Of a stretch of DNA of 64,000 nt, positions 40,220-44,323 are shown piece by piece; the stretch's first letter is position 1, and each line of letters opens with the position of its first letter. The notes under the pieces were generated by a model that saw only the letters and a program-made list of their open reading frames with translations, was not told where the DNA came from and did not search any database. The stretch is from positions 124,131 through 188,130 of the forward strand of contig NZ_FKBR01000009.1 in the NCBI RefSeq assembly GCF_900078335.1, given 5' to 3'. Position numbers and translations under genes: made by a program. This DNA comes from Bordetella trematum (GTDB taxonomy: Bacteria > Pseudomonadota > Gammaproteobacteria > Burkholderiales > Burkholderiaceae_B).

Positions 40220-41524
40220 ATGGATTTAAAAATATTTGACCGGATGGAGTCCGAGGTGCGTGGCTACATCCGGTCCTTCCCGGTGATATTCAGCCAGGCT
40301 CGCGGATCTCTGCTCATCGATGAGAGCGGTCGCGAGTACATCGACTTCTTCAGTGGCGCTGGCACCCTGAACTACGGCCACAACAACCCTGTCTTCAAAG
40401 AGAAACTGCTCGAATACCTGGCCAGCGACGGTGTCGTCCATGGCCTGGACATGGCCACCAGCGCCAAGAAGCGCTTTCTCGAAACCTTCGAGCGGGTGCT
40501 GCTCAAGCCGCGCAACTGGCGCTATACCTTGCAGTTCACCGGCCCCACGGGTACGAACGCGGTCGAGGCCGCGCTGAAAATCGCCCGTCAGGTCAAGGGC
40601 CGCCCCAACATCATTTCTTTCACGCATGGCTTTCATGGCGTGAGCGGCGGTTCGCTGGCGGCCACGGCCAACATGAAGTTCCGTGGTGCGGCGGGCTATG
40701 CCCTGGGCAATACCACCTTCATGCCCTATGACGGCTATTTCGGCCCCGACGTCGACACCATTGCCTATCTGGAACGCATGCTGGAAGACCCCAGCAGTGG
40801 TCTGGACAAGCCGGCTGGCGTCATCGTGGAAACCGTGCAGGGCGAGGGCGGGGTCAACGTGGCGACGTTGCGCTGGCTCAAGGAGCTGGAGAAGCTCTGC
40901 CACCGTCACGACATGCTGCTTATCGTGGATGACATCCAGGTCGGTTGCGGGCGCACCGGCAGTTTCTTCAGCTTCGAGTCGGCCGGCCTGCGGCCCGACA
41001 TCATCACCTTGTCCAAGTCGTTGTCGGGTTTCGGCCTGCCGATGTCGCTGGTCATGATGAAGCCCGAGCTGGATGTCTGGAAACCGGGCGCGCACAGCGG
41101 CACATTCCGAGGCAACAACCTGGCTTTCGTCACCGCCGCACAGGCCTTGGACAGCTACTGGGCCAGCGACGCGTTCTCCACCGAGGTGCAGCGCAAGGAG
41201 CGCATCGTGCGCGACTGGCTGGAGAACCTGGCACACAGCTATCCCAACGCCGGCCTGGCCGCGCGTGGCCGGGGCCTGATCCAGGGCCTGGTCAGCACCG
41301 CGACGCCGGAACTGTCCAATCAGATCGCCAGCAAGGCTTTCGAGCGTGGGGTGGTCATCGAGACCTCCGGCGCGCATGACGAAGTGCTCAAGCTGCTGCC
41401 GGCCCTGACGATCGAAGACGAACTGCTGATGCAGGGGCTGGAAGTCATCGAGGCCAGTGTGGCCGACGCCTTGGGCCAAACCCAGCCTTCGGCACGGGTT
41501 CTCAAATTTGGAGGAAAACGCTAA
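40220..41524 (+). CDS. ectB: Diaminobutyrate-2-oxoglutarate transaminase
   Basis: The 434-residue class-III PLP aminotransferase forms L-2,4-diaminobutyrate from aspartate-semialdehyde and glutamate, the first ectoine step. The PLP lysine is in ITLSKSLSGFGLP (Lys266). Other family marks: FFSGAGTLNYGHNNP, FTGPTGTNAVEAALKIAR, ETVQGEGGVNVA and DDIQVGCGRTGSFFSFE. The ATG at 40220 has the excellent ribosome site AAAGGGAGG. It overlaps ectC by one base. Confidence 0.98.
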   Translation: MDLKIFDRMESEVRGYIRSFPVIFSQARGSLLIDESGREYIDFFSGAGTLNYGHNNPVFKEKLLEYLASDGVVHGLDMATSAKKRFLETFERVLLKPRNWRYTLQFTGPTGTNAVEAALKIARQVKGRPNIISFTHGFHGVSGGSLAATANMKFRGAAGYALGNTTFMPYDGYFGPDVDTIAYLERMLEDPSSGLDKPAGVIVETVQGEGGVNVATLRWLKELEKLCHRHDMLLIVDDIQVGCGRTGSFFSFESAGLRPDIITLSKSLSGFGLPMSLVMMKPELDVWKPGAHSGTFRGNNLAFVTAAQALDSYWASDAFSTEVQRKERIVRDWLENLAHSYPNAGLAARGRGLIQGLVSTATPELSNQIASKAFERGVVIETSGAHDEVLKLLPALTIEDELLMQGLEVIEASVADALGQTQPSARVLKFGGKR

Positions 41525-41922
41525 TGATCGTGCGCAATGTAAAAGATGTGATCGGCACCGCCGACGAGGTCCGTACGGACACGTGGATGAGCCGTCGCGT
41601 GCTGCTCAAGAAGGACAACATGGGGTTCTCTTTCCATGAGACCACCATCTTCCCGGGCACCCGCACCCACATCCATTACAAGAACCACCTGGAAGCCGTG
41701 TGGTGCATCGAAGGAGATGGCTCCATCGAAACCGTGGCCGACGGCAAGTGCTACGACCTGGGTCCGGGTGTGGTCTATGCCCTCGATCAGCATGACGAGC
41801 ATTGGCTGTGTGGCGGCAAGGAGCCGCTGCGCGTCATTTGCGTATTCAATCCGCCGTTGACGGGGCAGGAAGTGCATGACGCCGATGGCGTCTATGCCTT
41901 GCCGGAAACCGAGACGGCTTGA
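41524..41922 (+). CDS. ectC: L-ectoine synthase
   Basis: The 132-residue cupin-fold enzyme cyclises N-gamma-acetyl-diaminobutyrate to ectoine. It begins MIVRNVKDVIGT and contains GFSFHETTIFPGTRTHIHYKNHLEAVWCIEGDG-type sequence, with the metal/substrate-binding cupin residues, and LDQHDEHWLCGG. The length matches EctC (~130). It is coupled to ectB by a one-base overlap, and ectD starts 17 bases later. Confidence 0.98.
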   Translation: MIVRNVKDVIGTADEVRTDTWMSRRVLLKKDNMGFSFHETTIFPGTRTHIHYKNHLEAVWCIEGDGSIETVADGKCYDLGPGVVYALDQHDEHWLCGGKEPLRVICVFNPPLTGQEVHDADGVYALPETETA

Positions 41923-41939
41923 AAGAAAGGAGGCAGACG

Positions 41940-42860
41940 ATGATTTCCACTGCACAAGATCCGTATGCTTCACGCACCGATCGGGCCGCGGCCATCATCG
42001 CGCGCCAGGACCCGGTCGTCTACGGCGACGGCAGCTATGCCGATGTCCTGAGCGCCGAACAGTTGCAGGCCTATGAGCGCGACGGTTTTCTCCTGCTGGA
42101 GAACCTGTTCTCGGCCGACGAGGTCGCTCAACTGCTGGCCGAGGTCGAGCGCATGACGCGCGATCCGGCCATCGTGCGTCGCGAAGAAGCCATCACCGAA
42201 CCGGGCAGCAGCGCCGTGCGTTCCATCTTCATGGTGCACGTGCTCAGCCCCTTGCTGGCCCGGCTCACGCGTGAGCCACGGCTGGCGCATGTGGCGCGCC
42301 AGATCCTCGGTTCGGAGGTCTATATCCATCAGTCGCGCGCCAACATGAAGCCGGGCCTCAAGGGCAAGGAGTTCTACTGGCACTCCGACTTCGAGACCTG
42401 GCACGTCGAGGACGGCATGCCGGCCATGCGGGCGCTGAGTTGCTCGGTGCTGCTGACGGACAACAACGAGACCAACGGGCCCCTGATGCTGGTGCCGGGA
42501 TCGCACCGTCAGTTCATCTCCTGCGTGGGCGAGACGCCGGATGATCACTACAAGCAGTCGCTCAAGAAGCAGGAGTATGGCGTGCCGGATCCGGTCAGCC
42601 TGCAGCTGCTGGCCGAGCAGGGCGGCATACGCACCATGACGGCGCCGGCCGGTTCGGTCGTGTTCTTCGATTGCAACACCATGCATGGCTCGAACAGCAA
42701 CATTTCGCCCTGGCCGCGCGCCAACGTGTTCATGGTCTACAACAGCGTGGAAAACGTGCTGGCGCAGCCCAAGTGCGGCCTGACCCCGCGCCCCGAGCAC
42801 ATTGCCACGCGCAAGGGTTTCGAGCCGGTGGAGCCGCTGGCCGAGACGGCGTTCGCCTGA
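41940..42860 (+). CDS. ectD: Ectoine 5-hydroxylase
   Basis: The 306-residue Fe(II)/2-oxoglutarate dioxygenase converts ectoine to 5-hydroxyectoine. The metal facial triad is visible as HSDFETWHVEDG and the later MHGSN histidine; the ectoine-hydroxylase signature region around YWHSDFETWH and the 2OG-binding region RQFISCVG are present. The ATG at 41940 has AAAGGAGG just upstream, which decides the start over an upstream TTG at 41919. It is the last gene of the operon and is followed by a UUCG-loop terminator. It implies the cell makes hydroxyectoine as well as ectoine. Confidence 0.98.
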   Translation: MISTAQDPYASRTDRAAAIIARQDPVVYGDGSYADVLSAEQLQAYERDGFLLLENLFSADEVAQLLAEVERMTRDPAIVRREEAITEPGSSAVRSIFMVHVLSPLLARLTREPRLAHVARQILGSEVYIHQSRANMKPGLKGKEFYWHSDFETWHVEDGMPAMRALSCSVLLTDNNETNGPLMLVPGSHRQFISCVGETPDDHYKQSLKKQEYGVPDPVSLQLLAEQGGIRTMTAPAGSVVFFDCNTMHGSNSNISPWPRANVFMVYNSVENVLAQPKCGLTPRPEHIATRKGFEPVEPLAETAFA

Positions 42861-42970: not shown

Positions 42971-43846
42971 ATGCCGCTTACTGTCCGCAGCCTGCACATC
43001 TATCCCATCAAATCCTGCCATGGCATCGACCTGCCGGCAGCCCGCCTGGGGCGCGCCGGTCTGGCGCATGACCGGCGCTGGATGATCCTAGGCCAGAGCG
43101 GGCAGTTCATGACGCAGCGCCAATGGCCGCGCATGGCGCTTATCCGGCCCAGCCTGACGGCCGATGTCCTGCGCCTGAGCGCTCCGGACATGCCGGACCT
43201 GGACATCGCGCTGGATGGCAGCCAGCTGGCCACCCGGGCCGAGCCCGTGGTGGTCTGGCGGGATACTGTGCAGGCGCGCGCCGAGAGCGACGAGGCCGCG
43301 CAGTGGCTCAGCAGGTTTCTGGGCCAGCCCTGTCGCCTGGTCAAGGTCGACGCCCAGGCGCGTCGCGCCGCCAAGCCGCAACGAGTGCAGGATTGGTGCG
43401 AACGTCATCCTGATGCGGCCGGGGCGTTCGCGGGAGATCATCATTTCGGTTTTGCCGATGGCTTTCCCTTGCTGGTGATCAATCAGGCGTCGCTCGACGA
43501 CCTCAACGCCCGTCTGGCTGCCAAAGGCGTGGCGCCGGTGCCGGTCAATCGTTTCCGGCCCAACATTGTGCTGGAAGGTGATGATTGGCAGGCGTTTGAA
43601 GAGGACGTTACCGCCTTGGTCGATTTCGGTGCCTGGCGCATTGCGCTGGTCAAACCGTGCACGCGCTGCAGCATCCCCGATATCGATCAGGAAACCGCCC
43701 AGCAATACCAGGAGCCCGGGCTGACGCTCGCGGCGTACCGGACACTGGAGGAGGGGGTGGTGTTCGGCCAGAACGGCATCATCGACGCACAGGATGAAGT
43801 CATGCTGCGAGTCGGTGACAGCGCTCAGGCCGAGCTGGACTTCTGA
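42971..43846 (+). CDS. MOSC domain protein with MOSC_N beta-barrel
   Basis: A 291-residue protein of the YcbX/mARC type: N-terminal MOSC beta-barrel (LHIYPIKSCHGIDLPAARL, LAHDRRWMILG) and C-terminal MOSC domain with PNIVLEGDDWQAFEEDV and the molybdenum-cofactor-binding cysteine in VKPCTRCSIPDID. The homologues reduce N-hydroxylated bases with Mo-cofactor. Unlike E. coli YcbX, no C-terminal 2Fe-2S ferredoxin domain is fused, so a separate electron donor is expected. The ATG 42971 yields the canonical MPLTVRSL start. Confidence 0.93.
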   Translation: MPLTVRSLHIYPIKSCHGIDLPAARLGRAGLAHDRRWMILGQSGQFMTQRQWPRMALIRPSLTADVLRLSAPDMPDLDIALDGSQLATRAEPVVVWRDTVQARAESDEAAQWLSRFLGQPCRLVKVDAQARRAAKPQRVQDWCERHPDAAGAFAGDHHFGFADGFPLLVINQASLDDLNARLAAKGVAPVPVNRFRPNIVLEGDDWQAFEEDVTALVDFGAWRIALVKPCTRCSIPDIDQETAQQYQEPGLTLAAYRTLEEGVVFGQNGIIDAQDEVMLRVGDSAQAELDF

Positions 43847-43852
43847 GCCGCT

Positions 43853-44170
43853 TCAGCCGCTGGCCAGCTTCAGGCCAGCCAGGCCGGCGGCGATCAGCAG
43901 CACGCTGATCACGCGCAGTGCGCTCAGCGTTTCCCCAAACAGGATGATGCCGGCCACGAATGCGCCGATGGTGCCAATGCCGACCCAGACCGCATAGGCC
44001 GTGCCCAGCGGCAGGGATTTCATGGCGATCGCCAGCAGCCAGAAGCTGATGATCATGCCGCCCACGGTGATCAGCGAGGGCGTCAGCCGGGTAAAACCGT
44101 GCGTGTACTTGAGGCCGACAGCCCAGACGATTTCGAAGAGACCGGCGAGAATGAGGATGATCCAGGTCAT
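43853..44170 (-). CDS. gdx: Guanidinium exporter, SMR family (SugE/Gdx)
   Basis: A 105-residue, four-TM small multidrug resistance protein. The conserved membrane Glu is Glu13 ([17 protein letters not shown]), with the SugE/Gdx-type segments [25 protein letters not shown] and FGETLSALR. The Gdx branch exchanges guanidinium for protons. That function is supported here by a guanidine-II riboswitch in its leader. The ATG at 44170 follows AAGGAG. The longer upstream in-frame start would add riboswitch sequence and is rejected. It is convergent with the MOSC gene and divergent from panD. Confidence 0.95.
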
Positions 44171-44211
44171 GGAGAGCTCCTTGGCGTGAGCCTGGCTGCG
44201 GCCAGGCGCAA

Positions 44212-44290
44212 GGGGCCGTCCCCGGATTTTCGGCAAGCGGCGCGCAGGGCGCCGCAGATCAAATGCCGGCCCCGGGTCGTCCCAGGGCCC
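44212..44290 (-). promoter_or_regulatory. Guanidine-II (mini-ykkC) riboswitch ahead of gdx
   Basis: Two hairpins with ACGR loops lie in the gdx leader. Hairpin 1 (44289-44268): GGCCCTGGG, loop ACGA, CCCGGGGCC, nine pairs with one U-G wobble, at the very 5' end of the transcript. Hairpin 2 (44223-44212): GGGG, loop ACGG, CCCC. These paired ACGR hairpins are the defining guanidine-II pattern. The ~44-base linker is at the long end and contains another GC hairpin (GCGGCGC with GCGCCGC-like pairing). Genetic context (SMR guanidinium exporter) agrees. Confidence 0.87.
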
Positions 44291-44294
44291 AAAG

Positions 44295-44323
44295 ATTATA
44301 AAATAAGCGCCGACCCCAGGCAA
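44295..44323 (-). promoter_or_regulatory. Near-consensus sigma70 promoter of gdx
   Basis: On the minus strand TTGCCT (44323-44318) and TATAAT (44300-44295) are spaced by 17 bases. The expected start (~44290-44287) places riboswitch hairpin 1 at the 5' end of the RNA. On the plus strand the same spot reads TATAAAAT and may contribute to panD. Confidence 0.88.

Follow-up and report, generated by a model that had tools for sequence, protein, structure and literature searches.

According to the parts of the published record available here, guanidine-II riboswitches (mini-ykkC; Rfam ID RF01068) are an established class with known loops, a known ligand, and a known association with exporter genes (PMC5486947, PMC7266159, PMC12186494). 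The layout described in the same excerpts consists of two hairpins with ACGR loops (PMC5486947) on a flexible linker, whose kissing in cis has been debated (PMC7544219); in the kissing form, a 14-nt linker must span 49 Å (PMC5486947).

The locus described here lies within the window, i.e., the whole 64,000-nucleotide stretch of DNA that was analyzed. We read it as a translational ON guanidine-II riboswitch that would raise the synthesis of a guanidinium exporter upon guanidinium, with a probability of roughly 0.8. It comprises the following features.

44295..44323, minus strand: promoter TTGCCT, 17-nt spacer, TATAAT (sequence reading and promoter scan)
44268..44289, minus strand: P1 hairpin, GGCCCTGGG-ACGA-CCCGGGGCC, 9 pairs, loop ACGA (sequence reading)
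44224..44267, minus strand: 44-nt linker with its own GC-rich hairpin (predicted fold)
44255-44249 with 44243-44237, minus strand: linker hairpin, with outer pairs 44267-44264 with 44235-44232 (predicted fold)
44231-44224, minus strand: 8 unpaired linker bases between the linker hairpin and P2 (predicted fold)
44212..44223, minus strand: P2 hairpin GGGG-ACGG-CCCC, 4 pairs, loop ACGG at 44219-44216 (sequence reading)
44190..44207, minus strand: further hairpin between P2 and the Shine-Dalgarno sequence (predicted fold and relatives)
44175..44217, minus strand: proposed off-state helix in which the P2 loop and 3' strand (44217-44209) would pair with the Shine-Dalgarno region (44183-44175), leaving one mismatch (predicted fold)
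44177..44182, minus strand: Shine-Dalgarno sequence AAGGAG (sequence reading)
44170, minus strand: start codon of the transporter gene
43853..44170, minus strand: SugE/Gdx-type small multidrug resistance transporter, 105 aa (profile and structure-sequence matches)

The original prediction of a promoter, an ACGA hairpin, a spacing of about 44 bases, and an ACGG hairpin is borne out in every part, each at its expected place. The promoter, of the sigma-70 type, with its -35 element at 44323-44318 and its -10 element at 44300-44295 of the minus strand, matches the consensus in 10 of 12 positions (all six in the -10 element and 4 of 6 in the -35 element) and is the sole promoter-like site between positions 43800 and 44500, where shuffled sequences lead one to expect 0.2. 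All 52 two-hairpin leaders from loci L089 to L143 have TATAAT at most 24 nt upstream of P1; unlike the -10 element, the -35 element is not retained by all of these relatives. The folding energy of the leader (positions 44150-44286; z-score of -1.91, equaled by 8 of 200 shuffles) is by itself modest evidence for a structured RNA. An inverted repeat (CCGG...TCGG) that the terminator scan scores as terminator-like spans the -35 element at 44330-44310 of the minus strand, and a similar one is found at locus L113; the repeat in the window may be an operator or may be due to chance. The reading frame of the transporter gene also extends, without a stop codon, back through the leader to a TTG at 44323 (43853-44323, minus strand; 156 aa), so that a gene finder could absorb the riboswitch into the coding sequence.

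The protein encoded downstream scores 143.8 bits against the NCBIfam SugE equivalog model NF008512 (cut-off, 126 bits) and also matches PF00893. Its nearest solved relatives are 6wk5_B (E value of 3.6e-36) and 8vxu_A (1.5e-35), with EmrE chains far behind at 1.1e-13 or weaker; the 6wk5 series we take to be Gdx-Clo. By the equivalog model and the nearest solved relatives, the transporter is of the SugE/Gdx type and is predicted to carry guanidinium. The further suggestion that an exporter with a strong promoter proves exposure to guanidine in this niche is not supported. Genes for ectoine metabolism are found nearby, at 40226-42860 on the plus strand, and include those for diaminobutyrate aminotransferase, ectoine synthase, and ectoine hydroxylase (NCBIfam).

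The transporter is present in 213 of the 268 genomes of the family. Out of 447 loci in genome contigs, 80 further ones were kept, and additional leaders were added; loci L009 to L178 number 170, one of which (L157) gave no gene match, so that 169 leaders were available. A mechanical rule, requiring stems of at least 4 pairs with at least 3 G-C pairs, recognizes two ACGR hairpins in 128 of these leaders; it overlooks some leaders that clearly belong but have mismatched stems (e.g., L018 and L032), and some start codons have perhaps been set too far downstream (e.g., in L165, L175, and L177). Removal of identical sequences left 122 different two-hairpin leaders for the linker-length and z-score counts. 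For the folding, forced-fold, hairpin-position, and P2/Shine-Dalgarno analyses, four presumed genome copies (L009, L010, L011, and L075) were dropped, leaving 124 leaders. Alignment A1 consists of 38 leaders from loci L089 to L137 with linkers of 29 to 44 nt and excludes the forms of 50 to 76 nt, L143, and six leaders of other genera; A2 consists of 34 leaders and A3 of 30 of these, none of them from the window's genus. The loop motif had been expected to be conserved in homologous leaders, and it is: ACG is invariant in both loops in 38 of 38 leaders of A1, all of which also carry P2 as GGGG-ACGR-CCCC, without variation.

A covariance model (R2) was built from 30 long-linker leaders of two genera other than the window's. 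In the 64-kb window, it ranks the site first, at 36.5 bits (E value of 4.5e-6), with the second match at 17.8 bits (E value of 0.033). Across 15 genomes of the window's genus, R2 matches 12 at an E value of 0.5 or better, 9 of these below 0.01. In four of these genomes, P1 and P2 are separated by linkers of 12 to 14 nt (L090, L092, L093, and L096); these leaders exceed the Rfam cut-off, with scores of 37.5 to 40.4 bits, and match R2, as does the site in the window. Because R2 ranks the site first and the four short-linker congeners pass Rfam, we assign the site to the guanidine-II class. Together with the invariant loop ACG, the SugE equivalog match, and the nearest solved relatives of the transporter, this agrees with the original identification of a guanidine-II riboswitch ahead of a SugE/Gdx exporter gene. 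Judged from its sequence, the site is most likely a guanidinium-sensing RNA switch of this class, with guanidinium as the presumed ligand.

A further model, R1, matched 8 of 399 genomes of the order, of which 3 belong to the family. Inspection by eye of the five genomes outside the family indicated that four of the sites precede SMR-type genes, with linkers of approximately 14 to 22 nt; the fifth match (L208) looked like chance. This search used strict filters and missed two genomes with long-linker leaders (G075 and G076), and as evidence of absence outside the family it is weak. A similarity search against plasmids gave no match.

The long linker of the window is an oddity common to its relatives. 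Among the 122 different leaders, which are related sequences and hence not independent counts, 68 have linkers of 11 to 23 nt and 54 have linkers of 29 to 76 nt, with none of 24 to 28 nt. The long linkers are structured, with a mean z-score of -2.13 against dinucleotide shuffles; 80% of the 54 fall below -1.5, and 6 lie above -1. The linker hairpin in the window has a stability z-score of -2.37, with 2% of shuffles being as stable. The predicted hairpin begins at most 1 nt from P1 in 46 of the 54 long linkers and is followed by an unpaired tail with a median length of 9 nt; both properties together (a start at most 1 nt from P1 and a tail of at least 6 nt) are seen in 45 of the 54, versus 13.5% of base-shuffled linkers. 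Thus, the linkers of this lineage are either short or usually contain a hairpin adjoining P1, followed by about 9 unpaired bases. On a tree of the transporter genes (n = 58), the long-linker label needs 5 changes, 2 of which are forced by well-supported branches. The four short-linker sequences from the window's genus cluster with L111 (support of 96/88) inside a long-linker neighborhood; six long-linker sequences from other genera constitute a cluster of their own (94/85).

In alignment A1, covariation is seen in both P1 and the linker hairpin. For P1, 97.7% of the cells of the 8 pairs counted are paired, and 4 pairs have changed on both sides; for the linker hairpin, 81.3% of the cells are paired and 5 of 8 pairs have changed on both sides; for the hairpin after P2, the figures are 96.8% and 2 pairs. 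Taken as a whole, the structure has a covariation score of 0.190; shuffles give 0.106, and slid partners no more than 0.102. The original suggestion that the linker hairpin could be a third structural element is therefore favored by the covariation of 5 of its 8 pairs, but the unconstrained consensus fold retains only 3 of the 8. The companion suggestion, that it might alter cooperativity, finds no support here.

A single strand spans about 6 Å per nucleotide, so that about 9 nt would be enough for the 49 Å of the kissing form. In our reading, the linker hairpin takes up the extra length and would thus preserve the spacing between P1 and P2, acting as a spacer. A lineage in which the linkers are either short or hairpin bearing is a natural experiment on the geometry of P1 and P2. 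A more elaborate scenario is a three-hairpin form of guanidine-II in which the inserted helix by P1 would set the geometry of kissing and, in part of the lineage, would have become an intrinsic terminator between the aptamer halves, adding transcriptional attenuation to the translational switch; we consider this rather unlikely as a whole.

Alternatively, the linker hairpin could act as a transcriptional pause site or an intrinsic terminator placed between the sensor halves, making control partly transcriptional. Consistent with this, a run of at least five T residues follows the hairpin in 10 of the 54 long linkers, and the terminator scan marks the hairpin in L113. However, such a run is absent from most long linkers, the linker in the window ends in GAAAATCC, and the terminator scan finds no terminator there. 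As an account of the site, this is improbable, although the linker hairpin may serve as a pause or terminator element in part of the lineage.

The translational reading starts from the predicted ligand-free fold of the window leader (-72.3 kcal/mol), in which P1 and the linker hairpin are formed, P2 is open (probability 0.01), and its loop and 3' strand are base-paired to the Shine-Dalgarno sequence. Without ligand, P2 would thus be open, and its loop and 3' strand (44217-44209) would pair with the Shine-Dalgarno region (44183-44175). Guanidinium would then stabilize the kissing of the P1 and P2 loops, P2 would re-form, and the Shine-Dalgarno sequence would be freed, raising exporter synthesis; the linker hairpin would absorb most of the extra length, leaving a short single strand (8 nt here) to lead from the base of P1 and its neighboring hairpin to P2.

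Comparative data bear on this off state in both directions. In A1, 77.3% of the cells of the proposed off helix are paired, and in all 38 leaders the P2 loop contributes its fourth base to a pair with the nucleotide following the Shine-Dalgarno sequence (A-U in 20, G-C in 11, and G-U in 7). The pairing of P2 with its own Shine-Dalgarno region is stronger than that with foreign ones in 10 of 23 clusters, which is not significant (p = 0.50; permutation p = 0.12); this comparison used 107 leaders, 76 of them in one cluster. The unconstrained consensus fold pairs the Shine-Dalgarno sequence with bases just before P2, not with P2 itself. When P1 and P2 are forced in the window leader, the energy is -70.0 kcal/mol with the Shine-Dalgarno sequence re-paired elsewhere and -65.4 kcal/mol if it is kept open. 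Among the 124 leaders, 6 of the 54 with long linkers and 5 of the 70 with short linkers show a drop of more than 0.2 in Shine-Dalgarno pairing when P1 and P2 are forced, so that release by this route is not general in the folding model. On this mixed support from the models, pairing of P2 with the Shine-Dalgarno region likely represents the off state. A further candidate pairing, between the third base ahead of P2 and codon 4 (T-A in 39, C-G in 4, and T-G in 1 of 52 leaders), was set aside, as the protein also constrains this codon.

Some relatives have lost or changed parts of the sensor: L102 retains only a P2-like hairpin, L142 and L144 are without the hairpin pair, and L111 has ACAG in both loops. 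Such cases would fit a riboswitch that is homologous in sequence and has lost its switching, but the window retains intact loops and stems in both hairpins, together with an intact -10 element and gene, and the covariation speaks for upkeep within the lineage. We regard a decayed riboswitch as a very improbable account of the locus, and decay at the window site itself is unlikely.

The altered leaders are of interest in their own right. The L111 leader (1944-1853, minus strand; genome G081, of the window's genus) has ACAG in place of ACGR in both loops, with intact stems, and matches R2 at 28.7 bits. The ACAG leader pattern is found in 1 of 268 genomes, and a backwards control pattern also gave one match, in a different genome. 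The change alters the guanine that, in the available part of the structural account, holds guanidinium (PMC5486947), and it may reflect either decay or a changed ligand. L142 (G105) and L144 (G104) retain the promoter and the transporter gene without the two-hairpin sensor; their remaining hairpin carries ACAGGCGCA in its loop, and, as read by eye, a pairing of GGCGCA with the TGCGCC that immediately precedes the start codon is conceivable. At a distance from its exporter gene, genome G081 also contains another pair of hairpins with ACGA loops that resembles guanidine-II (L209, 479-527; G081:C1:3176478-3176526; 28.1 bits; E value of 0.014), located upstream of a 409-residue open stretch; this pair may be due to chance.

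At the gathering score, the Rfam search of the whole 64-kb window reported nothing. When the threshold is lifted, the family that scores best at the site is RF01068, with 21.4 bits versus the gathering cut-off of 32. The next RF01068 match in the same genome, at 19.5 bits, is barely weaker; this and six still weaker ones were judged from their surroundings to be chance matches. As for the other guanidine riboswitches, which share the ligand class by name and have other folds, guanidine-I (RF00442) gave no match in this genome at an E value of 1, and guanidine-III (RF01763) gave one, at 17.6 bits versus a cut-off of 36. Since the 21.4-bit alignment pairs P1 with the linker hairpin, taking the latter as P2 and leaving the true P2 as a separate RF01068 fragment of 11.6 bits, one might suppose that these two form the functional pair and that the downstream ACGG hairpin is incidental, but the chances of this are negligible, as the loop of the linker hairpin is CCTGC, with no ACGR, and the downstream GGGG-ACGR-CCCC is present in all 38 leaders of A1 and constitutes P2 in R2.

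The original prediction was to fall if no covariance-model hit could be obtained; taken literally, that is the outcome at the Rfam cut-off, whereas R2 does match the site. A scan of the leaders of 60 loci found the gathering score reached by 12 of 14 short-linker leaders but by 1 of 43 long-linker leaders (L177, 34.2 bits); three scanned leaders without two ACGR hairpins gave no Rfam match. Because the pass rates differ in this way, the low score at the site indicates a gap in sensitivity rather than a refutation. The gap is a practical one: among the long-linker leaders of the family that were scanned, the Rfam cut-off would recover 1 of 43.

Set against the described systems, the site has the two GC-rich ACGR-loop hairpins ahead of a sugE/gdx gene that characterize guanidine-II, the SugE equivalog being directly downstream, and it is homologous to members that pass Rfam. 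As in guanidine-II, the second hairpin is close to the Shine-Dalgarno sequence, and no terminator was found in the linker of the leader. It differs from the guanidine-II RNAs recognized by Rfam in falling under the RF01068 cut-off, and its hairpin-bearing linker of 44 nt (up to 76 nt in relatives) exceeds the 7 to 40 nt given for the flexible linker of the class in the available text of PMC7544219, which is a reported range and not a mechanistic requirement. No mention of a hairpin in a guanidine-II linker was found in the excerpts of the literature searched, including work on additional hairpins and linker length (the best 15 of 178 matches), which is no proof of novelty; no literature match was found for guanidine-II together with Achromobacter. 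The leader of E. coli sugE (gdx) precedes the same type of gene and has the same loop motifs, with P1, P2, and a 14-nt linker (L014) but, unlike the site, no linker hairpin. The anti-Shine-Dalgarno sequence, which the E. coli work places in the linker in the part of PMC9094411 available, would lie in P2 at the site. The riboswitch class is known, and what may be new is its linker-hairpin variant, overlooked by the standard RNA search here and in related bacteria.
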